Made by a program: the position numbers and the translations under genes. The notes under the pieces are model-generated. The model saw nothing but the letters and a program-made list of their open reading frames with translations, searched no databases and had not been told where the DNA came from. This document shows, one piece after another, positions 3,730-64,000 of a stretch of 64,000 nt of DNA; positions within the stretch are counted from its first letter, which is position 1; each line of letters starts with the position of its first letter. Origin of the DNA: Gordionus sp. m RMFG-2023 (Eukaryota; Nematomorpha; Gordioida; Chordodea; Parachordodidae); the NCBI RefSeq assembly GCF_954871325.1, contig NC_088777.1, forward strand, positions 1,054,001 to 1,118,000, given 5' to 3'.

Positions 3730-4721
3730 CAGAGTTGCTAACGCCCCTTTTTAAAAATAGCTAGCTCCCACTCCTAAATTTTGAAAAGAAGCTAGCTTCC
3801 GCTCCAAGTAATGGATTGCCACTCCATAACCGCTCCTTTGATTTTCATTTTTTTAGAAGGTATACGAAATAAAATTGATTTTTTTTTATCAAAAAGCTTT
3901 ATTTATATTAAATGATCTATCAAAATATTTATAACCTTTTATTAACCTTTAAAAGTAATAAATTTTCTAAATTAGAAATCTAACAAACATCCACGCTTCT
4001 CCCCTAAGACCTGTTTTGCAATACTAAATAGGCACTCCACAGAAGCACTAGAGGGAATCGGGGTATTGTATTTTATAAAGATATTTTTTTAATTCAGGGA
4101 ATTTATCAAAAATAGTAATTTTGGTATCACTATTCAAAAAATATTTGTCCAATATATTATCTTCCTGATGATCAATTTCATGCATAGAATCCAAAAAAAT
4201 CTTCCAAATCAATTTGTATTTAAAAGAAAGATGCTTTATTAGATTGAAGCTGCTCACTTTTTAAAATTAAATAGTTTTTTTTAAACACAAAAGACATTTT
4301 GCCCCTAAATTTGTTTGATCATTTGGATCAACATCTTTTAGAAGTTTAAAATATGATGGAAATGGAAATTCGATTTCTTCATCTATGATCTCTAAATCCA
4401 TAATATCTAAAGCTATTTTTTTATTATGTATATCTCTATAAAATGAATATTAATATGACTGACTTACAAGATTTTTCAAAAAAAATTTCAATTTAAAAAA
4501 AGGAAAACTTGACGTTTAATATTTAAAATGATTAGATGAAAAACCAATATAAAACTCGGCCAAACATTTATTAATGGATTTAAAAAATAATTTAAAATTT
4601 AAAGGAGCGGCAGAGCGTCGCTCCTCCACTCCAGCCCTAAAATGAGCTAGCTCCCGTTCCCGCTTCCGCTCCCGTTCCCGCTTCCGCTCCCGTTCCCCAA
4701 TTTTAAAAGAGAGGGGCTCTC
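3730..4721 (-). mobile_element. hAT element with transposase C-terminal remnant (hAT-B)
   Basis: The left end CAGAGTTGCTAACGCCCC and the right end GGGGCTCT are imperfect inverted copies. Next to both ends are GC-rich arrays of GAGCTAGCTCCC and CCGCTCCCGTTC units, a subterminal style known in animal hATs. On the minus strand 4257-4048 is an open stretch ending FPELKKYLYKI, and an overlapping frame at about 4070-3970 reads NTPIPSSASVECLFSIAKQV then LGEKRG, the conserved hAT C-terminal dimerisation motif. The transposase is broken by at least one frame change, and the N-terminal part is not recognisable. A clean target duplication could not be seen, so the outer limits are approximate. Confidence 0.6.
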
Positions 4722-9959: not shown

Positions 9960-10087
9960 ATTTATGTATGGTATAAGGTCGATCATTAAAAAAATAGTTA
10001 ATCTATGATGAGTTACAATAACTTTGTAACTCAAAATAATCATCACTATAAAAAAAACCTAAATATATTTACTTATAGCTCGCAAGT

Positions 10088-10244
10088 CCTTTCCTTTCCT
10101 TTCCTTTCCTTTCCTTTCCTTTCCTTTCCTTTCCTTTCCTTTCCTTTCCTTTCCTTTCCTTTCCTTTCCTTTCCTTTCCTTTCCTTTCCTTTCCTTTCCT
10201 TTCCTTTCCTTTCCTTTCCTTTTCTTTCCTTTTCTTTCCTTTCC
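10088..10244 (+). repeat. CCTTT pentamer microsatellite
   Basis: About thirty CCTTT units form a pure pyrimidine strand that changes directly into a purine tetramer array at 10245. Confidence 0.95.
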
Positions 10245-10455
10245 GAAAGGAAGGAAGGAAGGAAGGAAGGAAGGAAGGAAGGAAGGAAGGAAGGAAGGAA
10301 GGAAGGAAGGAAGGAAGGAAGGAAGGAAGGAAGGAAGGAAGGAAGGAAGGAAGGAAGGAAGGAAGGAAGGAAGGAAGGAAGGAAGGAAGGAAGGAAGGAA
10401 GGAAGGAAGAAAGGAAGGAAGGAAGGAAGGAAGGAAGGAAGGAAGGAAGGAAGGA
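10245..10455 (+). repeat. GGAA tetramer microsatellite
   Basis: About fifty GGAA units, nearly perfect with one GAAGAAA interruption near 10408, form a pure purine strand. The long open frame across this and the preceding array is an artefact. Confidence 0.95.
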
Positions 10456-13400
10456 TTCCTAAAAAAATAATAAGATTAAATATTTAATAAAAACTTTCTA
10501 AACATAATAAAAAACAATACTGAAATTAGAAATTTAAAGTTTGTGTAGAAAAAAATAGATGATAATATGATTGCCAGATTTAATATTTATTAGAAAGCCT
10601 AGGATTAGTTTATCCAAATTTCTAAATTTTATTTAGAATTTAAAATAAAGCAATATTATTGAAGAGGGTTAAAAATTCTTTTAACAAAGCTATATTATTA
10701 GAAAGAGTATATGGGTATATAATCAACATGTTATAATGTAGCAATTTTTTTTTAATATTTGTTTAAATTGGATTATACATATCTTTTATCATTTTAAAAT
10801 TTATATTCCTAGCAAAATTTATCTTATAAAAATCTAGGTAGAAAAAAAATAAAATTATATAATGTGTACCATTATACTGTAGAAGGTATGGCTTATCTGA
10901 TATTTTTATAATATTCTAATTTCCTTCTTTAACACATTTTTTAATTACCTATAGCCGATGCAATTGTAACATTTCCAATAGCGTGAATATAATAATCTAT
11001 TTCCCCTATGTAAAATTAATATAAATATTATATTAGCTTTTAAATATTCAACGTGCTGTAAAATTTGTCTTTCAAAAAAAGTAGAGCGACCAAATTAATT
11101 GATAGATTTAGTCGACAAGCGCTATTATTTTCTTATTTTTGATAAAATATTTTTTATTTACAATGCGAAACTGAATTACCATCACCATTAAATATTGATC
11201 CAACACCAACCCAAGTCCTTAAAATACTAATAATTTTCTTAACGCTTGGTATATATACTCAACGTATTATTGATACATTAGGATATTTTGATCCCAAATA
11301 GGAATTGTTCTTTAAAATCTATGGGTCAAAAATTTTAAATCCTATTCCAAATCATACCTAATATTTAATATTTAAGACAAAAAACTTCAATCAATAATAT
11401 TTCCGTGATCATATATTTTAGGAAGATATTTTCATTTTACAGAATTTGGAAATATTTGTATTATAAAAGAAAAAGGTTTTATTACATCTTTCAATAACAC
11501 ACAATTAGTTTCTTTCAAATTTGAAATAAAAACCCGAAGGTTTTCAGCTAAGAGGCCAGGTTCGTGCTTTTATAGCCAGCTAAAAATTGGCTAAACGGCT
11601 AATAATATACTAATTACCAAACTATAATATTTAGTAAAAAAATGTAACATCATTGGCAATACACGCTATATAATTTAGGACTTATATTATTTGTAACAGA
11701 ATAAAATCTGAAATGTTCAAGAATATTTTCACTTACTTGCTCAGAAATAAAAAAAATAATAAATAATAATCAAATATTTTGCAAAGTGAAAAAATTCTAA
11801 TTTTTCTCAGAACTTTTATAAAATTAATTTATTATCAAATAAAAACTAATAAATGGATAAATAGATTAAATCGATATTCAACATTCTATATCATCAGGGT
11901 AAGTTTTAATACAGAGGAATGGGGGAGGGGTAATCTTTTAAATATAACATTTCAGCATGGGTATCAAATTAAATCTAATACAAATATCAATTGTTTACAT
12001 TGTTGCACATCGCTCAATGTGTTTAGGGTAGATGTTGACAAGTTGTTGAGGGGGGGGGGGGGTAGTTCATAATTAAATATCTTGACGTGAATATCAAATA
12101 AAAAGATTAACTTATTACATTATTACTCATTTCTTCAAATGGATTAGGAAATGGAGGAGGGTGTTACAGGTATTTTGAGTTTATAAGATTTCAAATGGGG
12201 GTGTTATGTGAAAAATTTAACGACGGAAATGTTTAAATATCATTCAAGTTTTAGTGAGAATTGATATGAGCCAAGGGTTTATAATCTTGACATGGTTCTC
12301 AAAATTAGGCCAACTAAATTATTTGTCTTATATGTTATGAATCATTCTAGGTCTTACGGAAGTCGCCATTTTTTAGTTTTTATGAAATATATATATGGAT
12401 ATTAAAAGTAAAAAAAAGTTAAAAATTTTTATTAAAAATATATTTATGCGATTTTACAAAAATGAAGTATATAATGATATTCGATCAGTCAATCCTAGGC
12501 TTTTATTAGCTTTATTTAAACTTCCTCTTTTATCTCTTAAAGGGTATGTATAATGCGGGGTATGGTTTAAAATATTTTAATCTTATAACTCTTTCCCTCC
12601 TCAGAAATCGGGGTCAATGTTTATTTTTAAAAATTTATAATCTATAAAAATCATCTAAATCTATTTTACTATGCAAAAAATTTTTTTGAGCAATTAAGTG
12701 ACTAACATTTTCCTAGCGTTTCATACATATTTCTATAAAATTCATTTTTTTTAATTTGATTAATTTCAGTTTTATACTTTTTCCTTTCAAATATCGTTTT
12801 CGGAAACCATTACAATATATTTATTTTGATAATCATTTTTGTTATCCTTTTTTATTGAGTTATATTCCATTTATTTATTTTTTTAAATTACTCTTTAACA
12901 AAATGATCGTCCCTTATAAACTATAAAAAAATGTAATTTGAAAAGAGGTGTATTCCAATTGTTACCATCCATCACTTTGGGCAATTATATATCATCTCCA
13001 AATTTCGGCTAATTCTTAATGAGAAAAACATATGTTTGGAAGCTCACATTTATAAAAATATTAACAAAATGTCATCTAATGTATTATTAATTGAATTTGT
13101 TAATTTCCCTCTAATTATCTTAAGTCATACTTTAAAGTTAGTACAAATTCCATTAAAAAATAGTATAAAAAATGAAGATTTTGGAAACAATTCTTTTTTA
13201 AAATTTCATTTTTTTTAATATGAGTTTTAGTTACAATTTATATGGATTATTTTAAATATTATAAATCTTTCTAATTTTATTTTCGAAATAATAATTTAAG
13301 AACAATTAATTTTATTAAAATATATTTACCTCCATAAAACATGGAAATTTTTAACAATAAATATTTAGCCTTTACTAATTTTGAAATCAAGATGATTTGA

Positions 13401-16676: not shown

Positions 16677-19600
16677 ATGTTTCTTTATACAAAAATAGCC
16701 ACCCTGGCATTCATTTATGTAATTGCTGTTGATTTCAATCCCATTTCCGCTTCAGGTAACAAATAACGCTCAAAACTAAAACCTTATTTCCTATATGTTT
16801 TATTACAAAAAAAAAATATTCATACTTTTTTCTATATCGAATTATAAATTTTAAAAATAAAAAAAACGTATATTTTTATTTGATTTTTTTTAAAAAATGA
16901 GGTATATTTATATAGGATTATTATCTGTAATTAATTATATCATAAAGCTCATTCACTTTTTCTGATATTTATATCTAACAATAAAAATGGACTCCTTCTT
17001 TGCAAAATGTAAGTCGTATAAGATCTTTTCTCTATATAAAGAACTGATTTCTCTGATAGTCAATACCACTTTGTTTGTATTATTTTGTCCAGAGGTTATT
17101 TCTCTTTGAGTTCACATGTGATATAAAAATGTTGCTAATTCTGTATGATATATATTACATTACGATTACGCAAAGCGGATTATCTTTAAAATTGTATGAA
17201 TACTATTTATACCTAAACCTAATTTCTTATATATAAAAATAATTGCCGGGCATCTATATTCTACCTATAGGCTTTATCTCGATTTTGCCCTTGTTATCTT
17301 TTAACTCACCTCAAATAAACTCATTTAAAAATATCTATTTCCAAAAAAGAATTTTTTTTCATTTAATCTCAATTTACGACTACAATCACCCTTACTCCCT
17401 GATAATTTTAAACAGTGGGTATTCTTAAGATTATTAATTTCTTATAAAATTTTAAACCTTCAATAATATTATTTTTAAATTTATTTTTAATTAATGTTAA
17501 TATAGTGAAATATATATTTCGCTTTGTTGATAAATTCTTAATTTAAATTTATCACACATTGGGCTTCGGATTATGTAGACTATATTCTTAAAAGTAATTA
17601 ATTTTTCAAGCAATCCTTCTTGTCCATTTCAAAATATTTTTTTTGGGCATCGAAGTTTCAATGTAGTCGCTAAACTAAATTTTATTTAATAGTAATGATT
17701 AATTTTAAAAAAAAAATTTTAACCGTTTTTTCAGCAATTTTTATGAAGAAATATTAAAAATTTTTATTTCTTTAAAATGTAAGGCATTGAGCGAGTTTCT
17801 TTATGCGGAAAAGTTGCGGAAAATAAATACTACGAAATGAAAGGATTATTTGAGGGGCAAGCTGGATATATACGAAGAAATTTGTAATTCATGTTCCATT
17901 TTAATATTACTCTAAGTAAGTGTTGTTAATACCTATCTTTAATCAACTATAAAACAGCATAGCCATATTTTTATCTTAAAATATTCTAATCAATCTTCAA
18001 GTTGACTTAGAAGCCTTAATTCAATTTTTTTAGTCTAAAAGCTTGAACTAGGACTCAATAGAGATGGTCAGAGCTAGGTAATTTAACAACATTAACTTTA
18101 AAGATCAAAATATTTAATCGTTAAATATGATTAAATTCAAAGAAATAAATCATTTAAATGTAAAAAAAATTTTTAATTATAAAGTTTGCGGGATCTTCGT
18201 CTCAGAAGAAATGCGGACAATGTCATGTGGTCTTACGAAATCAAAAGCGGATATATATCTAATCAAACCTATATTGATCAACAATCCATGAAGCTAACAA
18301 ACGAGAAATTTTTGAACACCCTAAAATGGTTGCACGAATATTACTCTCCTTCTTGGTATATGCAGAGCGATGTAACTTCCTATAATTAATCTATAGCATT
18401 TTAACCTCTGAAATTATCTTTTAAAACTTTAAAATGTATCGTTTCGTACCTTTGAAATTTAAAATTTTATTTTAATCTATCTAAAATGATATATCCATTT
18501 AAGTTTGAAATGTCCATACTTCGCAATAGTGTTTGATAAAAGGCTTTATTTGGTGCCGATTATTTAAAAACTACCAACTCAATGTCTTAAGCCAGAAATA
18601 TATTGTTTTTAAATTTGAGATTTCGCTAATAGATGTTCCAAATCCTTTGTTCCATCTATAAACAGAATCTTCAAGGCTTAATATATTTTTTTCTAGATAA
18701 AATATTGACTTTAGCCTTATTAGCTCAAATCGAGGAGTTTAAAAACACTAATTTTGCAAGATAAAGTTATGGTGCATTTATTTATAATCGTATTGATATT
18801 TTTTTCAAAGTGGAGATTGGAAATGAAGGAGGGTACACAATCTCAAGCTACTAATCTTTGTTACCTTACAATAAATACAATGGAAATAACCTGCTTCCTT
18901 GTAATCAGTATATTGGGCTATAAATTTGGGGTATAATGTTAATTTATTTTTAAATTATATTGTCGCCGCCGCAAAGTGCAAATGTTTTATGAAAATTTAG
19001 AAATTTTTATTTAATTTGAAGTTTTTTGTTATACTTAAACACAACGGTAATAAATATTTTGAACAAAAAAAAGGCCTAATCACTTTGATGTTAAATCATA
19101 TTAGAAGGATACAAGATTAAAAAATCTAAAATTTGCCGTCGAAATATTTTAATTTAACTTTATACTTTGTATGGTTGTAATAGACTTTTTAAAAACATTA
19201 ATTTTATTAGTATCGATAAGAAAGTCATATTAGATATTGTAAATTAAAAAAAAGGTAAGTATTAAAAAATCAAAATTAACGACATTAGTTAGAGTTTTGA
19301 GAAATTAAAATAGTAAGCACTTTCAGCACTATTACTAAGTTTAGCATTCTGCGTCGATATCGGCCCCTATTTTTTTAGGCATAGTGGGAATTCCCTATCT
19401 TTTTGTTTTCCATGCCTTTTTTTAAAATATATATTAAGATAAGTCTATGCCATTACAAATAAATACTATTTACTGCATATAAGTACGGTAGAGCAACAGT
19501 GATATATCTCAAGCTTTATACTTAAATATATATATTATTAACTCTATATTTCATAAATATTTTGAGTAATCCCTATTACACTCGTTAAGGAGTATTACCA

Positions 19601-20443
19601 AAATTGTAATTTATAGAGACATTGCATTATTTTAAACTTAATCTTTACTTTTTTTAATAAGGAATCTATTATCGTAAAAAAAAAATTTCTGATAAAAAAA
19701 ATAAAATATAATTATTATTCAAATAATTATTCGTATATATATTTTTAATGAAAAATTTATTTGTATAATGAACACTAATGTTGTTAAAAAGCCCGATCAA
19801 GATTTTATCCAAAAATATATTATATGTTTGAGATTTGGCGAATAGAGGTTCAAACCTTTCTGCTATCTATGAGCAAACAGGCTTACATAATATTATTTAG
19901 GCTAAAAATCTTAATCGGAATCAGCCTGCTTAACTACATTAATGAAAACCATATCCATGTATTAAAGAAACTTCTTCTATATATATCTAAACCCCTCTAA
20001 CCAACAGTTGTAAACTGTGTTTCTATTTTAATTTTCTCAATAATTTGTCAAACAACACATAATTTTCATTTAAAATGAGGATTTTTTTCTTCTTTTTGTA
20101 ATCTCTCTCAAATTGTGAATATAACTCATAGAGAATTTTGCAGGGGTGGCGAGATTCGAAAAAAAATAAAACTAATAAATTATAATATAATTTTATAGTG
20201 ATTATTTTATTGTAGATTTTAATTTTTTTTTAAAAAAAATATGAATATTAGGTAAAGCAAAAAGAGAATGATATTCTTCTGCTAGGTGATGGTAGAGTGG
20301 ATCAAACTATAAAAGATAGTTTTATTATTTCCTATAAATCTGATGATCTCATGGTTCATGGAAAAAGGCACACCCTAATGATGAAACTTGGAGAATGCCC
20401 TTCGGAACATGATAAAATTGAAGGTCTTAAAAAATCTTTTTAG
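16677..20443 (+). CDS. Module I with signal peptide
   Basis: Exons are 16677-16755, 17784-17883, 18185-18371, 18811-18900 and 20252-20443 (or 20423 if spliced onward at G/GTCTTA). Exon 1 encodes MFLYTKIATLAFIYVIAV then DFNPISAS, a typical signal peptide. Exon A reads IERVSLCGKVAENKYYEMKG then LFEGQ; exon B contains NADNVMWSYEIKSGYISNQT and YIDQQSMKLTNEKFLNTLKW; exon C is WRLEMKEGTQSQATNLCYLT then INTMEITCFL; exon D starts VKQKENDILLLGDG and contains LGECPSEHD. The four cysteines are one in A, two in C, one in D, matching modules II and III. If the TAG at 20441 is used the product is 215 residues. MITEs at 18526-18751 and 19775-19942 sit in its introns. Function unknown. Confidence 0.7.
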
Positions 20444-23400
20444 TCATTGTTAATGCATATGATTGATTCAAATTCATGCATGTTATTTTTTTAAAGTGAA
20501 TTTACAGCAAACGTGACCCCTTCTAACAGCTTATCCAGCTTTGTAATGATCTTATAGTGATAATTTTTTTTTCTCATTTATTTAGTAATTAGTGCATTTT
20601 GGTATAAAATGTTTCATGTGGTTATCATTCAAAGATTATTTTTCTTCTTTTTTTAAAATGCAATTGGTTACCATCTTTCAAGATGGCTGTCGATATTCTT
20701 ACAAACTGACTTTCTTATTTTTGTCACAAAAAATCGGTAAAGATAAATAAAAATACAAACTAGAACCTGGACATAAATGAAAAATTTTAAATATCTTTCG
20801 TAATTTTGAGTCAAAAAAAATGATAGGAGGTCAGTTCGGCAAAAAATATTATTTTCAAGGATTTAAATACAAAATGTGAATTAGTAAAATTAAAAAAATG
20901 AATTTCATGATAATATAGGGAACCACCACATTGAATATGGATGATCTGGGTAATACTGTGTGTATTCTGGTATTACAATTGTTCTCCACTCGTGCAGTTA
21001 GTTCCATATTCGCCAATTTTTAATTAATGGCGTTCTCTTTCTTTCCAATGACACTTTCAATTTTTTTTTCCTGATATATTATTTGTTATCTTTAATATTT
21101 TTATTCAAAATTAATTTAGCCTACACGGATGAGCGCTTATTACACATCGGATCCTCTTTCTTAATTAGATAATTTACTTTCCACATATTTTAGTCTAAAG
21201 CTATATAATTATATTTTAAGATTCTTTGGCAATATCTGAGGTCGCTCCAGCTAAACCTATAGAACCTGAGGTTGCCCTACCTATAGAACCTGAGGTTGCC
21301 TTACCTATAGAACCTGTGGTTGTTCCACCAATAGAACCCGAGATTGCTCCAACTATGAAACCTGCTATGGATAATCAAACTAGGGGTAAAATATTTTTTT
21401 TTACAGTTAAAATTACCCTATTGGTTTGCTCATTAATATGATATAAGAATGCATATTAATACTTTTAATTGATATTTAGATTCCTCAAACATATGTGAAA
21501 AAATTAAAGGGGATGATTGGCAAACTATTAATTCGAAAGAAATACTAGGAGATATTTTGAAGACTGATTTACCTGAAACATTGTATGAATATAATATTAT
21601 ATATAAAGTTATAAAGAGAATATTACTATAATTTTTTTTTATTACCATAGCCCTAAAAATTTACAAGTAATCAACAAGTATGGAGATATTATGATAAAAA
21701 TAAATGGCGCAGATATATATAACGAGAATCAAAATAACTCTATATTCAACGAAAAATTAGAGGCCGTTCATTGGTTAAAAAATCAGGTTATACACTATAT
21801 CTGATTGGTCAAAATTTTCTTTTTTTTAAATTATTTAATATTTGACAGATGAAGTATTTTAGTGGTGACGATGAAAATCCATTACACGTCAAAAGCAACG
21901 TAATAATATCTTTAAATATTTTAAATCTTAATTTGGTGTTTTAATTATCATTGTATCTATTTTTTAAAAAATAAAGTTGATAGCCACAATGAGTTCCAGC
22001 AGCAAAACGTCTAATTTAAAAATTTGCTACTTCGATTATAAAGATAGTGAACGCAGAGAAAAGTGTGTTGATGCAGAGGACCTAAGGAAAACAGTGAGTT
22101 TATTTAATGTATAATAGAAAAAAAATTTTTAATAATACAATATACTTAAAAAATAAAAAGAAACAATTGAATATATTTTTAGAATAGAATAATTCAAAAT
22201 AGTAACGCTATCGAGATGTCGCAAACCGAAAATGGAAAGATCCTTGAAAAGAAATTCTTAGATTCCTATCTCACCAGTATCATAGGAGATTTGACTTTGC
22301 AAGGAACTTTTTACGAATTCGTCTTTACCATGTGCCCATGTCCACGTAAATTTTAAATTTTTTTTTTTACTCGTAATAAAAATAAGGTTGCTTTTCAGTC
22401 ATGCTTTATAATTAAATTTCATGCAATTAAAAAACAGATTTTATTAATGTTGTTTAAGTAGTTCTAAATCGCTTAAACAAAAATGGCTAAAAATTGGGAA
22501 TCTAAAACTTGGATTTTGGATGATATTTACTCCATTTTAGCGATTTTTTAAAATTTTCAATTTAAATACAAGTGTTTACTCCACATTTACTTTCAAAATT
22601 TTCTAAGAGATATAAGACAGATTCCCAATTTTTAGCGATTTAGAACCTATCTCACAATGTCTCATTTACATAACATGCTTCTTTTAAAATGTCTGTTTGG
22701 TCTAGGAAAGTATTTTTTGGAGAAAAACTTAAACATCTTTAAGATAAAAATTTTGAAAATAGTTTATTTGTTAAAGTCATATTGAAATTTATTTAAAAAA
22801 TTTTTTTTTAAAAAAATAAGTAATATAATGTGTTATTTTATATATTTTTTTCTGTGTAAATATAATATTTTATGAGAATTTTTAAATATACAAATAATTA
22901 TAGTACATTTTTTTTCTGCCTCTTTTATTATTTAATAAAAGTGTTATTTTCTTATAAATTCCTCTTATCAAAATTTGTAAAAATTTTATATACTAATAAG
23001 ATAAGTTTCAATTAAACATAGTTTATTGAATTTCAACTGAAAATCCCATATTATTGAAATATAAAACTTTTTATGTTTATAAACACGTAACAAGTAATTG
23101 TAACTAGTTACAATTTTAATAATGCAACCAGCAGAATTATTGATAGATACTTTTTGGATCTAAATATAGATACATAATTTTAAAAAAAACTTATCTACAA
23201 GTTCTGTCTTTTTTTCCAGCTTTTACCCCATTCTAAGGGATTCATATATTTAGGAGTGCATCTACTGTTAACTTTTCCTTAGTATCGTTATCTCTAAAAA
23301 AATAAATTTTTCTACTCATTTAATGTTAAATCACAAGCAAATTTCGCCTAAAATTATTTCGATTATCCTGATCATCTAACATGATTGTATATAGTACATT

Positions 23401-26400
23401 CTTAATCCCATCATATATTTTTTTGAAACATACTATATTAATTTTTATACCCTCCTTCTTAACTTCATTTCCATCAATAAAAATTGGGATAGGCTTATCT
23501 TTCTCCTTTAAAATAATATACAGTATTGAATATCATAATATAATAGTTTGTACATCATACCATTTTTGATAGAGAAAATTTGCTAAAGTATATATTTTAT
23601 AAAACATATAGATATCTGCAAAAGGGTTCCCAAAACAGGTTTGATAGAAATTCATGACGCGCTAGGGATTCAAAGGTATTATTCACAAGTATTTTGGTGA
23701 ATTATTTATATTAATATTAAATATTGATTAAACCTATGGCACATATCGATTGGCACATTTACATATATTAGTTTGCCATAATAATCAGGTACATCGTTAA
23801 AGGGTACCCTAAAAATATTGTACCAGTTTTCCAATTAGTTTTTTAAGAAAAATCAGAAATTTGCCTTAATCAATGTTTAAACAAAATTATGAAATTCCTG
23901 GGTCGGCCTAGAAAGTTATTTTGCAAAATAATTTGCACAGGTAAAACCCGGCGCTGGTCAAACCTTTTAGCCCGACTCGCGGCTTTTTGAGCGAACTGAG
24001 CAAGATCCTCTATATCTGTTGCTCACCAACCTACACAATATTTGACGAAATTAGTTTTAAAAAATTTAAGGCTATAGCTTTATTATTTACTTTAAATATA
24101 ATCTCTTTTTATAAACAATTCAAATACATTATATATATATATTTTTTAGGATTCTGAGCAAACAATACGTATTTTTGCATAGATCACCAGATGATATTAA
24201 ATGGATTCTTGAAGGAACAAACATATTCTCCCCAAAAAGAGTTAATTATTATGAAGCTGGTAATCCCTCAACGTGGGATATAGCGAGAGCATATGGTTCA
24301 AAATTGAATGGGTACACTTTTGACAGAGTAGACAGTTCGGTATGATATGCGCAATATAATGTTTTTAAAAAAAATACTAAATAATATAATAACAGTGGTA
24401 CGTCATAATGAAGGGTGATGTGTCTATCAAAAAAATTTGCGGTCTTACCAATAACAATGGGGTCATATCTGACAAGTGTAACAGTTTTAATAATTATCAA
24501 TTCCAGTATTATGTTCCCGAAAGTGAACGAGTAAAATTTTTAATTAATTAATTAATTATTACCATTAATTAAAAATTTTATAGTATAATTATGATTTTAA
24601 TTATATATTTTTTTATTTTAGTATTTGAAGATTTCGCAAGAGAAGCGGGGTGTTTTATTGACCGAAACTTATGCGAATAGCGTGATCCTAAAAAATTTTC
24701 GTGGCATATTTTTCATTACCCAATTGTTCTATAAAAAGGGGAAAAAAAACTCTCCTAAAGATGGCATTCATAATTTGGTTACCGTTTTATCAAAATGTTC
24801 GGAATCAGAATTAACTTGTGGTATAATTCTCTAATATAAATCGATTATGATAGTGTTGTTGTTAACTCAATACTTCATCCAGAAAAAATATTATGCAAGG
24901 CCTGAAGATTTTGCTCATAGAAGGAACAAGGTTTTGAATATATATATTATCTGAATCTCGAGCCTTAGAATATAATTTTCTGGATAAAATATTGAGTTAG
25001 CAGTTTTAAAAAATCGGCTCGAAACGAGACGTTTAATAACACTAAATTATGATATGATATTTTTGCTTTATTTTAACTTTAGATTTAAAATTTTAAAATA
25101 AATTATTATTTGTTTGTCTACTAAATATATTTTTTTTTCCCCCTTGTAAAATAAATTTTAGTAATTTTTTTTTCTAATTACGTATTCTATAAGTATATTA
25201 TTATTATTATATATAAAATTTTTTTATAAAAAATAATAATATATTTAAAAAAAATATATTGATTAAATATAATACATATATATATCAGACATTTTCTTTT
25301 TATATTTTAACGATAGTTTCATCTGAAAAGGATTGCTGCATTACGAAAGATTACGAAGATGTTCCCGTGCCTTTAGAAAATAATAGTTTTTTTTTAAAAA
25401 AAATATATAAGGAATATGTTTTTTTTCCGTCGTGTTTTTTTTAACTTAAAATAATTGGGGATTTTTTTAAAAAAATTTTTAAAATCCGGTTTCACCGGAA
25501 ATGGATTCCATTATGTTTCGAAATACCTAACCACTTATGAATTTTAGATATGTAAATAAAAATCACAGAGGAAGGTTGTCTAAAGTTTCTGGAATGCGCT
25601 TCCTGTAAAATATATTTTTTTTAATTTAAAAAGGTCATGATCAAAAAATGATTTAAAGGACTGCTTTTATAGCCAGGGCGAATCGCGCAAGCCACGCAAA
25701 ATTTTACACTATAAATTACATAATCGAGCCGATAATATGTATAATTCACAAATATGTGAAATGATGAGATCGCGACTGGTGTTTAGGTATAATTTCATAA
25801 AAACTATTATCATTTGATGAATTAGCTATAATCTTTCAAGCGAATAATTTAGCATAGCTCGCGCGAATCGCGCTTACTACAAATGCAGTGTCACAATAAA
25901 TATATAGTAAATTATTTAAACATCAACATTTTTTGTTTTACCTATCATTTAAAAAATTGCAAATAATTTATAATTTTAATTCAATTATTAAAGCCAGATA
26001 TCTTGATGCCCAAGATTTGTGCTATTTAGTTAAATTCTACAAGACTTATAATGTGATTAATTTACAAACTTTCGGCGATACCTTAAAGTAAAATATAAAA
26101 GTTTATGTCTATTCTTATTCTATCGTCAACTCTGAGCGTTATCATATTTAAATTTACGCATCGTCGGTTGATTATTATAGAGATGACCCAGGCAAAACTG
26201 GCAGTATTTTGTTATTATTTTACCATAAAAAAATGATATTAAATAAGAAATAATTATAAATCAATCCTTTAGCTCAATCCATCACTTAAAAGGAAAATAC
26301 AGTGTAGTTTTCTACCTAAGATACTTAGGAGCTTCATATATTATGGAATATGTATCTTTTTTGGGTGAATCACCAAAACTAAAGTGGCTATAAAAAAAAT

Positions 26401-28153
26401 TGAATATAACTGAACTAAATATTACAATTTTAATATTTATTTATTATTTTTAAGTTATAAACAATATTCAATAAGAGAAATAATCAAAATTAGCACATTT
26501 CAAAATGTTCCCATTTTGAACAGATCGTTCATTTTTAAAATATAAAATACTTTTGCACACTTTAGGACCATTTAAAATTTTTTTTATAATCATTTTTATT
26601 AACGTTCCTTTTTTCATTTTTTGAACAAGAAGTAAAAGATAATATTTTAGAATTCATTTTACAACTTATTACCATGATGAAAAATATTAACCGTTTCTAC
26701 CTCTTATCCTCTTTATTCCAAGATAATATTTATCCTATAGATCGTTATTTGGCTTCTACTTAAAATAACTTTTATATCTAATATACAATTTGTGCAACAT
26801 TTATATTCATTGAGATAAATAAATTTTATTAAAAGCAAAAGAATGCGGATTTATTTTATATAATTTATATGTAAAGCATGGTTTTTTTGACAAAATTATA
26901 ACCAGAAATATTTTCGGAAGGATAAACATTACAAAAAATTATACACCAAAATTCAGGAAAGTTTAAAAATTCGAGTTAACATTGTTACATAGTCAGCCTC
27001 TAGTGTTTTAAGTCCGTAAATAATTTGTTAGAATAAGAGAGCGCTTTAAATTAGTTAAATTATAATTTAGCAATAGTTTATATATTTTTTTAAATTGAGT
27101 AGATTCTTAGGGGTAAGATCTTGACTCTAATCTCAATTAAGACCAAAGAAGAGAGTTAGAATATAATTTTTAATAATTAAGAGAGGGTATTATGCTTCAT
27201 CAATATATTTTATTGATTTAGAAATATCACTGGCTTTTGCTGAAAGACTCTCTCTTAAGGCTCAACCTTTAAAATAAATGTAAAGAGATAAATAAATAAA
27301 AGAAGAAATATAAGTTATTATGGTATACAGAATATTGTATTATTAATATCTTATTTTTCTTTTGAATTTGTAGAATTACATTTCCTATTTTTTTTTTATA
27401 AAAGGAATGTAAAATTGAGAAATTGCAATGGGCTTGTGGAGATAAAGTGGGTAGCTAAAATTGAAGCCAATTACAAGGATGGTAGAACCACTTTTGATCT
27501 ATTCACAGATGAAGAAATAAATACTATGATGCGATTGGAACACATAAAGGACTTCATTATAGAGACTAGCCAAGTTATTTAAATAATCGGCAAAATTTAT
27601 CTATCAATATTATTAATCAGATTGGTTAAGGTTTTCAATATTGTTATATATCATTATATATTACACTTACAAATTTTATTTCGCTTATTTCATATAGGTT
27701 GAATTCCAATTGCATAACCTTAATGTTAATTCCACAAGCAAATTTTCAATGATTGCGAATAACGATATGAATCTCACCACAACTACAATCATGGCTTCGG
27801 ATTATATGAAAGTATTATTAATAATAGCTTAAATTTAACTACTTTTATCCTAGTTAATGAACAATTATGAGTTCAATAATTTATATAATTAAATTAGCTA
27901 TTACAAAATTGTAATATTTATATGTAACAAATCTTAAATAATAAAAAACTACTGTTAGGTCACACTAACACAAAGAGAAAGAGGCGTTTTAGTGGAAGGA
28001 CAATTAGCTTATGATAAATTTGATACTAAATTTATAGATGGACACTTATTAATTAGAGCAGATTACCATGAATCCGAGTTGATGTCAAAAGATATAGGGA
28101 AATTAATTCCGGCACCCTATTTAGTGTGCTCCAAGATTCTTAAAAAATGTTAA
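16677..28153 (+). CDS. Multi-module secreted cysteine protein, single-gene model (20 exons)
   Basis: Twenty exons between a signal-peptide ATG at 16677 and a TAA at 28151-28153 join without a frame break into 863 residues. The chain is signal peptide, module I, proline-rich linker (21221-21385), module II, module III, acidic linker (25317-25385), module IV. Each module has exons A (phase 1 to 2), B (2 to 0), one or two C (0 to 0) and D (0 to 1), so each module is a symmetric phase 1-1 unit. No second signal peptide was found for modules II-IV, which favours one gene. Against this, in-frame stops follow modules I (20441), III (24832) and the acidic linker (25442) if their weak donors are not used, so three separate genes are possible. 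The family is not one I recognise; secretion is inferred from the first exon and the conserved cysteines. Confidence 0.55.
18526..18751. mobile_element. MITE of the CTAGTGTTGTTAAA family, copy 3 (intronic)
   Basis: It begins ATAGTGTTTGATAAAAGGC and ends GAGTTTAAAAACACTAA. It retains the family blocks CCAACTCAATGTCTTAAGCC and TTTGTTCCATCTATAA. Flanks TTCGCA (left) and TTTTGC (right) are only approximately alike. It lies between exons B and C of module I. Confidence 0.7.
19775..19942. mobile_element. MITE of the CTAGTGTTGTTAAA family, copy 4 (intronic)
   Basis: It starts CTAATGTTGTTAAAAAGCCC and ends CTTAACTACATTAA, flanked by TGAACA and TGAAAA, a 6-base duplication with one change. It lies between exons C and D of module I. 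Confidence 0.7.
20444..21220. other. Intron or intergenic stretch between module I and the proline-rich exon
   Basis: If modules II-III form a separate gene, its first exon should be here. The best candidate is an ATG reading MQLVTIFQDGCRYSYKLTFL then FLSQKI before a phase-1 GTAAAG donor near 20740, following TATAAAA near 20601. Its hydrophobic core is poor for a signal peptide, so I favour an intron of one long gene. Confidence 0.35.
21221..21385 (+). CDS. Proline-rich linker exon (phase 1-1)
   Basis: The exon, 165 bases, enters and leaves in phase 1. It encodes about five copies of an 8-residue unit based on PIEPEVAL (PIEPVVVP and PIEPEIAP variants), preceded by DSLAISEVAPAK and followed by PTMKPAMDNQTR. 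At DNA level this is a 24-base minisatellite, so linker length could vary between individuals. Such acidic proline repeats usually form extended, flexible spacers between folded domains; that role here is inferred. The acceptor follows ATATTTTAAG and the donor is G/GTAAAA. Confidence 0.7.
21480..22345 (+). CDS. Module II (exons A, B, C1, C2, D)
   Basis: Exons are 21480-21582, 21651-21786, 21849-21899, 21977-22093 and 22183-22345. Exon A reads DSSNICEKIKGDDWQTINSK; B contains YGDIMIKINGADIYNENQ and EKLEAVHWLKNQ; C is split into two exons, the first MKYFSGDDENPLHVKSN and the second holding LKICYFDYKDSERREKC; D reads AIEMSQTENGKILEKKF and ends FVFTMCPCP before a phase-1 GTAAAT donor. Five cysteines fall at the same places as in the other modules plus one extra in D. 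Internal introns are short (62-89 bases). The splice joint A to B gives PETFPKN across a GTATGA donor. The family is unknown; it is homologous to modules I, III and IV by motif order, cysteine placement and intron phase. Confidence 0.75.
22346..23611. other. Long intron between modules II and III
   Basis: About 1.27 kb of AT-rich DNA. It contains imperfect inverted segments around 22430-22660 (ATTTTTAGCGATTTAGAAC and its partner TTCTAAATCGCTTAAACAA with AAAATTGGGAATCT), suggesting an old inverted-repeat element. No exon motif was found. Confidence 0.4.
23612..24820 (+). CDS. Module III (exons A, B, C, D)
   Basis: Exons are 23612-23675, 24150-24339, 24396-24530 and 24622-24820. The short exon A reads HICKRVPKTGLIEIHDALGI; B contains ILSKQYVFLHRSPDDIKWIL and ARAYGSKLNGYTFDRVDSS; C reads WYVIMKGDVSIKKICGLTNN with a second cysteine in ISDKCNSF; D reads YLKISQEKRGVLLTETYANS then ends VTVLSKCSESELTC. 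Exon A is recognisable only because it keeps the xICxxV core and is the exact piece needed to carry the frame from phase 1 to phase 2. D leaves by a G/GTATAA donor; if unspliced, a TAA follows at 24832. Between A and B the intron has a GC-rich patch at 23940-24010. Function unknown. Confidence 0.7.
24850..25045. mobile_element. MITE of the CTAGTGTTGTTAAA family, copy 5, with 6-base duplication
   Basis: It runs from ATAGTGTTGTTGTTAACTC to CGTTTAATAACACTAA and is flanked by ATTATG at 24844-24849 and 25046-25051, a perfect 6-base duplication. It lies directly downstream of module III, in an intron under the single-gene model. Confidence 0.85.
25317..25444 (+). CDS. Acidic linker or C-terminal exon
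   Basis: It joins in phase 1 to module III and reads SSEKDCCITKDYEDVPVPLE then NN. Two outcomes are possible. With a weak phase-1 donor at 25386 (A/GTTTTT) it is a 69-base symmetric linker leading to module IV. Without it the frame continues SFFLKKIYKEYVFFPSCFF to a TAA at 25442-25444 and closes a module II-III protein. The acidic, proline-containing composition resembles the other linker, which is why I prefer the linker reading. Exon D of module III could also splice directly to module IV exon A in phase. Confidence 0.5.
25445..25993. other. Intron with two GC-rich GCGAATCGCGC blocks
   Basis: The motif GGCGAATCGCGC at 25678-25689 and CGCGCGAATCGCGC at 25860-25873 stand out from an AT desert. 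Each is close to its own reverse complement, and they are about 180 bases apart. They may be the ends of a small MITE-like element at about 25670-25885; target duplications were not found. Confidence 0.35.
25994..28153 (+). CDS. Module IV and C-terminus (exons A, B, C, D)
   Basis: Exons are 25994-26087, 27405-27573, 27698-27811 and 27959-28153. A reads ARYLDAQDLCYLVKFYKTYN; B contains LVEIKWVAKIEANYKDGRTT and DEEINTMMRLEHIKDFI; C reads VEFQLHNLNVNSTSKFSMIA and is the only C exon without the two cysteines; D reads VTLTQRERGVLVEGQLAYDK and ends APYLVCSKILKKC before TAA. Module B exons of I and IV align well (R-N-x-N-x-V...I...Y...T). The paired loss of both C cysteines is what would be expected if they bond with each other. 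A partial genomic copy of B-D lies at 63214-63812, with all three exons still open, which supports these exon limits. No signal peptide exon was found immediately upstream. Confidence 0.75.
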
Positions 28154-30705: not shown

Positions 30706-40346
<9,641 letters not shown>

Positions 40347-46947: not shown

Positions 46948-49459
46948 CAGGGATGTGTACCTGGACTCGGATCTGAACCCTCCTGGACCCATGTATTATG
47001 GCTGAACCCCTTAATGGAGGGTCTAAGGATTCAGGGTGTTATAAAAAATTTTACATAAAAATTTTAAATAATGTAAAAATATTATTTTTAAAAATTAATA
47101 TAAAATTTTATTAATTTTTTTCGTAAAATATATTAATATAAAAGGCTATAATAGTTTGGGTAGTAAATTTATAAAAATTAACAGCATTAAGAAAAATTAT
47201 ACTTACTAATTTTTTATAAAAATTTGAATTATGAAAAATGAAATTGGACACTATTTTATTTTTACATCAAAAATAGATTATGTAATTTTTTTTATTCAAA
47301 ATTTATTTATTTATATTAAGATTTTGGATGCAGCCTTATTAAAAATATATACATTCTATGTGACTCTATACTTTTAAGTTTTAGACAAATTAAATTTTGT
47401 TTTTTTTTAGTATGAAAGTAATAGGTATTTTGTTAGAGTACTATAATGCAACTAAAGGGGATTCTGAGTACAAAACCTGCCACATAATGATAAAAGGTTC
47501 ACACAATACTAACCTGGAAAGACATTTAAAAAGACATCATTCTATAATCTTTGAGGAATATTTTAATAGAAAAACCAAGTTTTTGGAAGAAGACATTGTT
47601 ACAAAGTCTACTGTCTGTATTGTAAAAGGATGAAAATAATATTGAAAAATTTTGCTTTAAAAAAATCATTCATATTCAAATGTCTGAGGAGAATTTGATG
47701 AATTCTTTAGTTGAGTTTGTTACAATAAATGGAAGACCTTTTAATATTATTGAGGATTCTGGTTTAAAAAAAATTATTGATCCTATTAGTAAGGCAATTG
47801 GAACATCAATTAATCGTTTTAAAATTAAGGACTTAGTGATTAATGAATCGAAAAAAATTTGAAGCAAAAATAATAAAAGAAACAAAAATCAAATAAATTT
47901 TATTAAAAATTGATTCCGCCCAAAGATTAGGGAGAAATATTCTAGGAATAAATATACATTATTAAAAGGAAATAATATAATAATAAGAAATTTAACTATG
48001 AAGGAGATTAAAGAGAGTTCAACTTCTGAAAATATAAAAAGAATGATATTAGAAATATTAAATTTTATATTCCTATAAGAAACGTTTATACAATTACTAC
48101 GGATAATGGTGCTAATCTAGTAAAATCAATCAAATTATTAAATGAATGTTCACTGGAAGAAATGGATGTTATAGATGATGATGATGATAATTATGAGGAC
48201 ATAAGTTAAATTGATTTACAGGAAATAATAAAAGATTCCTCCACAACAATATACTGTATCAGATGTGCAGCCCATACGCTACAATTGGCTATTAATGATT
48301 CCCTAAAAAATAATCACTTTAAAACTATAATTGATAAAGGCAAGGGATGCTGTAAAATATTTAAGAACTCCCACAATTGTAAGAATATTTAAATCCATGA
48401 TAAGGCAAATGGCAATATTAGATTGCAGAACACGTTGGCCCTCTATTTGTATGATGCTAGAGCGATTAATAAGTTTGAAAAATTTCTGTAATGAGTTTAT
48501 TATAGGAGCATATGAAGTCATTTTGTCAGAAGATGATTGGAATCAACTTACTAGTGTGTTGGTTCCTTTAAAAATAACTATATTAAGATTGCAAGCAGAA
48601 CAGTTATGTTTATCGGATTTTTATGGCATATAGATAAGATGTGGATTAGAGTTAGAAAGATTTACAAGTTCTTTTTCATATAAAGTATTAGAAAATATGA
48701 AAATTAGAGAGCAACAATATTTAAGAAAATAATATTTTATATGCTTCAATATATTTAGACCCTCGATATTAAGTTTTATTGTATTGAGCAAAATTAAATG
48801 GCAATAGACCATCTTGAGGATTTATGACATACCCTAATCTCTATTATTTACAATATATTGGAGGCTACGACAATATCTACTGGTTTTAGCGATAACAATG
48901 ATAAAGATAACAATATTGAATTTTACTATTAAATAGAGGAAAAAAAATCAAATTATCATCAGATAGAAAGGAGCAAAAAATATCTATTGTATCTTTAATA
49001 GAAGTTCTTAGAAGTTAAGAGAATAAATAGAGACGATATTTTAAAATTCTGGGACGAAAATTCTTCAATATATCCAGAATTATATACCTTGTCTAGAATC
49101 GTCCTGGCTGTACCGGCGACACGTACAATAATTTATGTATTATAAAAATGACTATCTATTTTAGGTAAGCGTAGAACATGGATTTTCATCATTGAAATAA
49201 ATTTTGTCTAATTTACGTGGAAATCTGAAGGATGGTATTTTAGAAGATATCATGATCGTGCGATTGAAAAAAATATTTAAAATATAAATTATTTCATTTT
49301 GAATTATGAATGTGTATATATTGAAGTACAATAAAAAAACGAATGAAAAAAAAGTCATATTTTGAGTCATTATTTTTATGTTCCCTGAACCCGGACCCGA
49401 ACCCTGGACCTCCTTTTTAGACCTGAACCCTTTTTTTTGTCGAAGGGTTCACATCATGG
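46948..49459 (+). mobile_element. hAT transposon, complete ends, broken transposase (hAT-C)
   Basis: The 2512-base element starts CAGGGATGTGTACC and its other end reads, inverted, CCATGATGTGAACC (10 of 14 identical). The flanks carry a perfect 8-base duplication AAGAAAAG at 46940-46947 and 49460-49467. Transposase blocks in order: a BED zinc finger at 47397-47633 (YKTCHIMIKG then LERHLKRHH, where the second zinc cysteine is replaced); 47680-47862 with EFVTINGRPFNIIEDSGLKK; a catalytic-core part near 48080-48290 with TITTDNGANLVKSIKLLNE and IRCAAHTLQLAINDSL; 48331-48633 with LDCRTRWPSICMMLERLISL; and a C-terminal dimerisation part near 49050-49280 (YPELYTLSRIVLAVPAT, VEHGFSSLK). Several stops and frameshifts separate them, so the copy is inactive. 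Confidence 0.9.
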
Positions 49460-54634: not shown

Positions 54635-55480
54635 CTCTTTTAGCTTTCACCTTTTCTGGTGGTAAGCTACTTCAATATCTATCTCCACTTTATGTTATTC
54701 ATACTATCTCATTTATCTAATTTACATTTCTTCATATTGGCTCTTACTTTATGGCCCCATTGAAGTTTTGGCCTTCCTCTTTTACGTTTACCCATCACTC
54801 CCAAACTCTCAACCTTATTTCCTATGTATTTCATAGGCCTTCTCATTGTATGCCCATACCACTTAAGTCTGTTTACCATTGTATTAGTCTTAATGGGGGC
54901 TACCTTTAAACTTCCTAGTATTCTTGTACTTCGCACCTTCTCCTTTTTTGTTACCCCAGCAATCATCCTCAGCATTCTCATCTTCATAGTTTGTAGACTT
55001 CTCTCGTCTGATTATTTGGTTGGCCATGTTTCCGAACTATATTGAATAGTTGGTTGTTCTATTGTACCCTTCAATTTATGTGGGATTCTTTTGTCAAAAA
55101 GCACTCCAGATAAAGATCTCCACTTTAACCACCCTTGATTAATTTTATTCTTTATCTCTTTCTCTATTTTGCCGTTTTTTGTATAGTGGAGCCCAAATAT
55201 TTGCAGCTTTCAATTGCCGATATCTGCCATTCATTTATATCATTGCTTTTTGTTTCATCTCCTCCTATCACCATATACTCCGTCCATTCTCTATTTACTT
55301 TTAGTCCGTGATTTTCTAGGATATTTAACCAATTAACTAATCTTTCTTTCATTTCATCCTTAGATTCGGCAAGTATCACAATATCATCTGCAAATAACAT
55401 ATTCCAGGGGACTGCTTGTGGTATAAACTGTGCTAATACATCTATTACTGTTATGAAGATACAGACAAATAATTTTACCT
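54635..55480 (-). mobile_element. RTE-like LINE, 3' part of the reverse transcriptase
   Basis: On the minus strand 55430-55164 reads AQFIPQAVPWNMLFADDIVI then LAESKDEMKERLVNWLNILE then NHGLKVNREWTEYMVIGG, with the intact FADD catalytic box and the GLKVxxxKTEYM block. After a short interruption 54987-54709 reads MKMRMLRMIAGVTKKEKVRS then TRILGSLKVAPIKTNTMVNR then LKWYGHTMRRP, and a basic end GKRKRGRPKLQW, the usual C-terminus of RTE-like LINEs. The 5' part (endonuclease and RT fingers) is missing, as expected from 5' truncation. The 3' tail at 54636-54720 recurs at 3426-3476. Confidence 0.85.
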
Positions 55481-56079
55481 CTCACTCAGCAAAATTTATA
55501 TCACGAAGAAACAATTTGTATAATATCATTTTTATTTTTTGTATTACTATAATATGAAAGTTAAATCTAAAATACATGATACAATAATACATTAAATAGT
55601 ATACTTTGTAATATATATGTTGTATTCCATATTGAGTCAACCAAAAAAAATTGATTCTCAACCCGACCCCCTTCAATTTTTAAAAAAACTTGCATGTTGG
55701 TAGTATATACACTATAAAAATTTAAAATTTTTCTTTACGCATCAGCTTACTTCGTGAGATAAGGACATCTTTCGAAATGCTAAAATTCCAAAATACGCTA
55801 TTCAAAAAGTGATTAAATAGCTCTCTTGCCCTTTAATATGATATAAGATTTATTTTATTAAAAATAAGACTATTACCAAAAACCGGAAATGGAGCTATAA
55901 AATAAAAATTATTTTATATTTTTTTTACAGATAGACATTTTAATTCTTAATATTTGTATAAAATATTAGATTGCAACAGATACTAACTAGACCAATAATT
56001 ACTACATTTTAAATAAAAGTGGTATGCGGCCTGAATCCTATATTATACCAAATATATAGTAATTTATTTTTATTTTAAA
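55481..56079. other. AT-rich spacer, nothing seen
   Basis: No motif recognised on either strand. Confidence 0.5.
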
Positions 56080-62730: not shown

Positions 62731-63213
62731 ATGGCAAAATCATGTACACAAACTTTTACATTTAATTATCCATGGGAAAAAGTAGCTTTTGCTATAAATA
62801 ATCGATATCCAAATTCTTACAGGTTAATAAATATTTTTAAAATATTAAAAATTTTATATACATAAGTTCCCATGTAATATCCGAAGACGTCATATCTAAA
62901 GAAATTAAAGATAACAAATTATATATTAAAAAAATAATTGTCAAAATTAGCAAGTACATTTTTAATTAATTATAATAATTTATTACATCTATATAGAATT
63001 CCTAAATGGGCGGAAAAAATTATACCTGCTAGATCTGTACCCATACTTGAAAAATGTATCATAGATCCTTTAAATAAAATTTATGTATCATATAAGCAAA
63101 ATATAATGCACCAAAAATTTATGGTTTTATCACATTAAATTACAATAATTATTATATTATCTGCATAGATGGCAAGAGAATATTGCACGTACACTCAAGA
63201 TAATGCTAGATAA
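62731..63213 (+). pseudogene. PRELI-domain (PRELI/MSF1 family) gene, 3'-truncated
   Basis: Exons 62731-62822, 62867-62953, 62997-63123 and 63169-63213, with introns of only 44, 43 and 45 bases, join in frame. The protein begins MAKSCTQTFTFNYPWEKVAF then AINNRYPNSYSSHVISED (family W-x-x-V..A...RYPNPYS.HV..ED), continues KIPKWAEKIIPARSVPILEK then CIIDPLNKIYVSYKQNIMHQ (family R-M-P-x-W-A-E...P..V...LE.S.VDP), and KFMMAREYCTYTQDN (family LM.VEE.C.Y..NSDN). PRELI proteins move phospholipids such as phosphatidic acid between mitochondrial membranes with a small TRIAP1/Mdm35-type partner. After residue 114 homology stops: two codons later comes TAA, where a duplicated piece of the module gene begins. 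Known family members are about 170-220 residues; this one is 116, missing the C-terminal helix, so it is probably non-functional. Confidence 0.8.
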
Positions 63214-64000
63214 TATGATGCGATTGGAACACATAAAGGACTTTATTATAGAGACTAGCCAAGTTATTTAAATAATTAGCAAACTTTATCTATCAATAAT
63301 ATTAATCAGATTGGTTAAGGTTTTTCAATATTGTTATATATCATTATATATTACACTTACAAATAGTATTTCGCTCATTTCATATAGGTTGAATTCCAAT
63401 TGCATAACCTTAATGTTAATTCCACAAGCAAATTTTCAATGATTGCCAATAACGATATAAATCTTACCACAACTATAATAATGGCTTCGGATTATATGAA
63501 AGTATTATTAATAATAGCTTAAATTTAATTATCTTTATCCTAGTTAATAAACAATTATGCGTTATAATTAAATTAGCTATTACAAAATTATGTAACAAAT
63601 CTGAAATATTAAAAAACTACTGTTAGGTCACACTAACACAAAGAGAGAGAGGCGTCTTAATGGAAGGACAATTAGCTAATGATAAATTTGATACTAAATT
63701 TTTAGATGGACACTTATTAATTATAGCAGATTACCATGAATTGGAGTTGATGTCAAAAGATATAGGAAAATTAATTCCTGCACCCTATTTAGTGTGCTCT
63801 AAAAAATGTTAAAGGGATATATATATTATGATAATATTTATTATATTGGATTATAATTTATTTTTTCAAAATAGCCTTTATATAAATTATTTTCATTCAG
63901 CATGGTGAATATTTCTTTAAAAATTGATTATAGGGGTAAAATATGTGATAAAAACTATTATATATAATCAATTGAATCATGGTTCAATTTTAAAAATTTA
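63210..64000 (+). CDS. Partial segmental copy of module IV (exons B', C, D)
   Basis: This stretch matches 27521 to about 28396 at high identity and continues past the window edge. It starts inside exon B: MMRLEHIKDFIIETSQ to 63262, then exon C 63388-63501 (114 bases, same length) and exon D 63627-63812 ending in TAA. D is 9 bases shorter, an in-frame loss (CSKILKKC to CSKKC). Amino-acid changes include GVLV to GVLM, AYDK to ANDK and LIRAD to LIIAD, with no stop introduced. The C-D intron is 125 bases here and 147 in the source. It lacks exon A, most of B and a signal peptide, so it is probably not a working gene. Confidence 0.8.

Follow-up and report, generated by a model that had tools for sequence, protein, structure and literature searches.

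Mobile class 1-1 domains of extracellular animal proteins have introns of phase 1 at both outer borders, are repeated in tandem, contain cysteines and are joined by linkers. These traits are shared by a module of a gene in the hairworm Gordionus sp. m RMFG-2023 (genome of 287,057,807 bases in 267 contigs). The gene lies at positions 16677-28153 on the plus strand of a 64,000-nucleotide stretch, C3:1,054,001-1,118,000, referred to here as the window. It is best explained as a member of a hairworm family of secreted tandem-domain proteins multiplied by domain copying (probability about 0.8), and there is still better reason to expect that the domain itself is new, secreted and exon-duplicated. 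The original prediction, made from the DNA letters of the window, had interpreted the locus as a new extracellular domain amplified by exon duplication, an interpretation that the analysis supports.

To our knowledge, the molecules that enable hairworms to live in arthropods are largely unknown. A multiplied family, probably secreted and with no relatives detected elsewhere, offers a concrete candidate set for hairworm-host biology. The module, of roughly 180 residues, is a candidate new extracellular domain in a parasitic hairworm, matched by no described family, and its strict exon phases illustrate a route by which a lineage-restricted domain can be multiplied.

The Gene and Its Product

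A 19-exon model, with GT-AG ends at 18/18 introns, yields an open frame of 840 residues. Among 5.77 billion proteins (7123 candidates scored; here and below, the protein searches cover proteins 0.55-1.75 times the query length), the spliced product has a single match at E<=10, an unnamed Gordionus sp. m RMFG-2023 product. The exons had been predicted to be joined in one product, and the deposited protein P0001 (778 residues) does join 16/19 of them: 15 with both borders, and exon B of module 1 with the 3' border only. P0001 departs from the model in three ways: i) the signal-peptide exon (SP) and exons A and C of module 1 are absent; ii) its first four residues are foreign to the model; and iii) it has an extra phase 1-1 linker exon (25317..25385, VSSEKDCCITKDYEDVPVPLENN), found by mapping P0001 and absent from the exons predicted originally.

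Modules 2-4 are under coding constraint. Between this gene and the paralog at C1:81.01-81.02 Mb, the ratio of nonsynonymous to synonymous substitution rates (dN/dS) is 0.28 over 522 codons in 11 exon pairs of modules 2-4, and the corresponding ratio of proportions (pN/pS) for the same pairs is 0.42 (bootstrap 0.36-0.50). That there is no gene at all, only open frames and splice signals that AT-rich DNA yields by chance, might be argued from the commonness of AG and GT and from the four copies showing no significant likeness to one another, type versus type; but with purifying selection across modules 2-4, deposited proteins and paralogs with identical phases, this explanation is hardly credible.

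Probable Secretion and Repetition

The gene contains four modules, each of four exons, A to D. Their predicted order and phases (A 1-2, B 2-0, C 0-0, D 0-1) are found in all four copies at 16677-28153, with two departures from the claim that every copy conforms: exon B of module 2 is interrupted by an extra phase-0 intron, and exon D of module 4 ends in a stop codon rather than in phase 1. The chance of 12 matching phases is 2e-6 to 4.5e-6; with 11 applicable (no intron follows the last exon D) it is about 1e-5 or less, figures to be taken as a guide only, the exons having been picked with freedom. The predicted exon-A motif, (L/I)CxxΦ, is present as [I/L]-C-x-x-[I/V] in 4/4 window copies. The Q-x-E-x-G-x-L-like core predicted for exon D holds in its Q, the sole residue invariant among the window copies, and is complete in just 1/4; in 13 wider rows, too, Q alone never varies, and an I five positions further is nearly constant. 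The cysteines of exons A and D are kept in 15/15 aligned modules. At least two exon-C cysteines are found in 13/15, and none in the two type-4 modules.

Two results weigh against a secreted repeat protein. First, exon SP (16677..16755; phase 0-1), which holds the start codon and the signal peptide MFLYTKIATLAFIYVIAVDFNPISASG, is not in P0001. Its alignment with the beginning of P0004, a deposited paralog (0/5000 shuffles as good), nevertheless makes it likely to be real, and the predicted secretion is upheld to that extent. Second, hhalign comparisons of type versus type (types 2-4 with close paralogs) give a probability of <=0.43% for 6/6 pairs. A leave-one-type-out exon test, in which exons were sorted into types beforehand and ranking followed the masking of the training exons and of 63200-63820, placed the true exon first in 5/16 cases (A1, B1, B2, B3 and D1; E 6.4e-5 to 0.067); the C exons never stand out. 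By their sequences alone, the four window copies fail to show repetition, and the wider family decides.

When four modules of deposited chromosome-1 (C1) proteins are combined into a profile, window modules 1, 2 and 3 score 1.9e-11, 1.1e-14 and 6.7e-5, each matched by 0/2000 shuffles, and with all other types as training the same three modules again give 0/2000 each. In hhalign, types 1-3 reach 95.9, 98.5 and 94.5% against all the rest, where the maxima of 100 column shuffles per type are 1.5, 1.8 and 2.2%; against the chromosome-1 modules alone they reach 95.7, 98.7 and 37.0%. Because of these wider-family profile and hhalign scores, modules 1-3 are judged to be homologous.

Module 4 could instead be an unrelated C-terminal region with similar phases by chance, the repeats being modules 1-3 only. 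Its hhalign probability is 2.95% against all others and 2.1% against the chromosome-1 modules; when the profile is trained on all other types, 62/2000 shuffles score as high; and the exon-C cysteine pair is absent. Yet module 4 shares the exon order, the phases, the exon-A and exon-D cysteines and the exon-D Q motif, and it comes after module 3 in this gene as well as in the paralog at C1:81.01-81.02 Mb. Furthermore, with the chromosome-1 profile (1.1e-4) only 4/2000 shuffles match it, and the hhalign value just exceeds all 100 column shuffles (maximum 2.1%). An unrelated module 4 is therefore unlikely, and from position, phases and cysteines only it is a probable repeat. The predicted exon duplication stands for modules 1-3 only and may extend to module 4.

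Exon Arrangement

All exons are on the plus strand. In module 1, exon A (17784..17883; phase 1-2, IERVSLCGKV) and exon C (18811..18900; phase 0-0, C-x10-C) are not in P0001; exon B (18185..18371; phase 2-0), with the same 3' border, and exon D (20252..20423; phase 0-1) are. Exons A, B and D ranked first in the leave-one-type-out test (E 0.067, 0.01 and 6.4e-5), exon A is also supported by the phase-aware exon search, and exon C has an 80% identical, broken copy on C1. A linker exon with PIEPEVAL repeats follows (21221..21385; phase 1-1; in P0001).

Module 2 consists of exon A (21480..21582), exon B in two parts (21651..21786 and 21849..21899), exon C (21977..22093; C-x12-C; in P0001) and exon D (22183..22345). 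Exon A, the first part of B and exon D are supported by the model, the phase-aware exon search and P0001. The second part of B, cut off by the extra intron, is in P0001 and is contiguous in the paralog exon C1:73463247-73463409.

Module 3 has exon A (23612..23675; HICKRV), exon B (24150..24339; leave-one-type-out rank 1, E 0.0013) and exon C (24396..24530; C-x12-C), all in P0001, and exon D (24622..24820; model, phase-aware exon search and P0001). After the second linker exon comes module 4, all of it in P0001: exon A (25994..26087; DLCYLV), exon B (27405..27573; paralogs on C1 and C3), exon C (27698..27811; without either cysteine) and exon D (27959..28153), which ends in the stop codon.

The 3' end of the gene (part of exon B, with exons C and D, of module 4) is partially duplicated at 63206..63812 on the plus strand (match C3:1117206-1117274). 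The homology begins within exon B, which is cut, while exons C (63388-63501) and D (63627-63807) are still open. This duplicate at 63.2-63.8 kb, the extra intron of module 2, the second linker exon and the gene clusters on chromosome 1 go beyond the original prediction.

The Gene Family in the Genome

With P0001 as query, at least 43 match rows at E<=1 were obtained in the genome, and with a query from divergent copies at least 54; both counts are lower bounds that take in exons of the gene itself, and the two sets overlap. On C3, P0001 matches this gene, the duplicate at 63.2-63.8 kb and a site at 1.027 Mb; on C1 its matches form clusters at 73.44-73.46 and 80.98-81.02 Mb, with one weak match at 90.59 Mb. 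The divergent query has rows exclusively on C1, where they fall at 73.34-73.46 and 90.57-90.69 Mb. The phase-aware exon search covered the window, C3:1.018-1.038 Mb and C1:73.434-73.472, 80.974-81.032 and 90.582-90.591 Mb, and, with the four copies of the window counted in, its final profiles were made from 12 A, 12 B, 7 C and 12 D exons.

The deposited proteins P0002-P0005 are members of the same module family. One complete module each of P0002 (C1:90.63 Mb) and P0005 (C1:73.463 Mb) has phases 2, 0 and 0 at the A-B, B-C and C-D introns. Between two younger copies, C1:90.58 and 90.63 Mb, pN/pS is 0.50 (178 codons, 4 exons). Broken members are also found: exons 1C, 1D and 3B of a paralog at C1:80,981,000-81,002,100 (minus strand) contain in-frame stops, and a decayed copy of the gene's 3' end lies at C3:1,026.56-1,027.2 kb (minus strand). 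The chromosome-1 clusters of related genes are best explained by tandem gene duplication. Few genes are annotated in hairworms: for Gordionus montsenyensis, probably the species of Gordionus sp. m RMFG-2023, the number given is 10,819 (PMC11603191).

Search for a Known Domain

No known domain had been recognized in the modules originally, and no named-family profile match emerged here. With the whole protein as query, Pfam gave 0 families at E<=10; with 10 modules, it gave five families, each in 1/10 (best E 0.064), and NCBIfam four, each in 1/10 (best E 0.066), none of them convincing. In five public proteins every Pfam match was below cut-off, and Protein Data Bank (PDB) sequences matched two profiles weakly (best E 0.74 and 0.17). 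A 469-residue chimeric query matched four proteins, all from Gordionus sp. m RMFG-2023, and a profile of 15 modules found no protein at E<=10 (718 candidates). No relatives were detected outside Gordionus, which holds as far as the database goes, since it may contain no other hairworm proteins. In titles and abstract openings, a literature search found no description of the module family and nothing for LOC135929787.

Several candidates were rejected. A cystatin-like domain, suggested by the Q motif together with the cysteines of exon C, is without Pfam support in the protein, the modules or the public proteins. A copper-monooxygenase-like exon D (PF01082 Cu2_monooxygen, 18.4 bits, E 0.0026, P0003 residues 492-539) appeared in 1/5 proteins, where >30 bits are needed. 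MAM and ependymin domains, also considered, have no Pfam match; that the fold lists lack them does not exclude either. The exon-search matches at E<=1 do not include a module-like stretch at 0.5-1.0 kb (minus strand) that had been picked out by eye.

The structure prediction proposed for one module gave a model with a predicted local distance difference test score (pLDDT) of 85.7 and a predicted template modeling score (pTM) of 0.81; with five full-length proteins, the pLDDT was 36.5. The predicted domain is beta-rich, with 13 strands of >=3 residues and four helices of up to 17 residues. The fold comparison was less decisive: VIA-align superposes model residues 52-170 weakly on galectin and concanavalin A (ConA)-like lectins. 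Galectins or galectin-type lectins, so classed partly by title, make up 36/50 matches listed in Foldseek and 36/50 in VIA-align, and the remaining 14/50 listed in each are a mixture that includes levan- and alginate-degrading enzymes and thrombospondin, laminin and neurexin domains. In a viral structure library the best E was 5.6e-3, with a template modeling score by query length of <=0.23 among the best 50 matches listed. The modules might on this evidence be an extremely diverged branch of the galectin/ConA-like class of extracellular beta-sandwiches, the sequence signal having been lost; we rate this as improbable and prefer a new domain.

Proposed Architecture and Role

The proposed protein belongs to a hairworm family of secreted proteins with tandem domains, each predicted to span about 170-195 residues. 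A domain would be encoded by four exons and both its outer borders are in phase 1; therefore, a whole domain could be copied with the frame intact. The multi-domain protein would have arisen by such whole-domain copying, as the homology of modules 1-3 indicates and as may be extended to module 4. Each domain would probably be closed by a disulfide between the exon-A cysteine near its start and the exon-D cysteine near its end, with a second probable disulfide in exon C of most copies; secretion and disulfide closure are suggested by the signal-peptide exon and the conserved cysteines. The domains would be strung on linkers rich in proline and glutamate or in serine and threonine.

The modules may act as multivalent extracellular binding domains, perhaps for glycans, at the outer surface of the worm or in fluid released within the arthropod host. 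This putative binding or host-interface role is tentative. A structural role in the worm itself, in cuticle, egg-string glue or mucus, is about as likely, though it too falls short of an even chance: secreted multi-domain proteins with low-complexity linkers suit an extracellular matrix equally well, but tandem duplication is frequent in interface proteins. A bolder proposal, that the fold is absent from solved structures, was invented in hairworms, spread by exon duplication and then by tandem gene arrays, and is secreted to act as a multivalent effector or as a shield while the worm grows within its arthropod host, is speculative and rather unlikely.

Neighboring Features

A serpin-like exon lies at 1610-2390 on the minus strand (Pfam Serpin, E 2.2e-4, 21 bits, under the cut-off of 27), with an apparent signal-peptide exon of its own seen by eye; serpin matches in the genome number 91, many of them clustered. 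By eye and by their motifs, open frames at 54712-55481 (minus strand) resemble a long interspersed element (LINE) reverse-transcriptase remnant, and those at 47394-48630 (plus strand) and 4051-4449 (minus strand) resemble hAT transposase remnants. Long purine/pyrimidine tandem repeats at 10002-10487 and 38589-39000 give rise to spurious open frames. The paralog at C1:90.58 Mb has a similar repeat between its exons B and C.

Relation to Known Systems

One close comparison is with the Gordionus proteins P0001-P0005 (e.g., LOC135929787), which have the same modules and cysteines and, where mapped (P0001, P0002 and P0005), the same intron phases; they are the family itself, and their source names give neither function nor domain. 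Galectin and ConA-like beta-sandwich lectins, such as the Agrocybe lectin (2zgt) and human galectin-3 (1a3k), are beta-rich like the module and superpose on it weakly. Mobile class 1-1 extracellular domains resemble it in gene architecture, in the traits given at the outset. Unlike them, the hairworm module matches no named domain and is divided by three internal introns.
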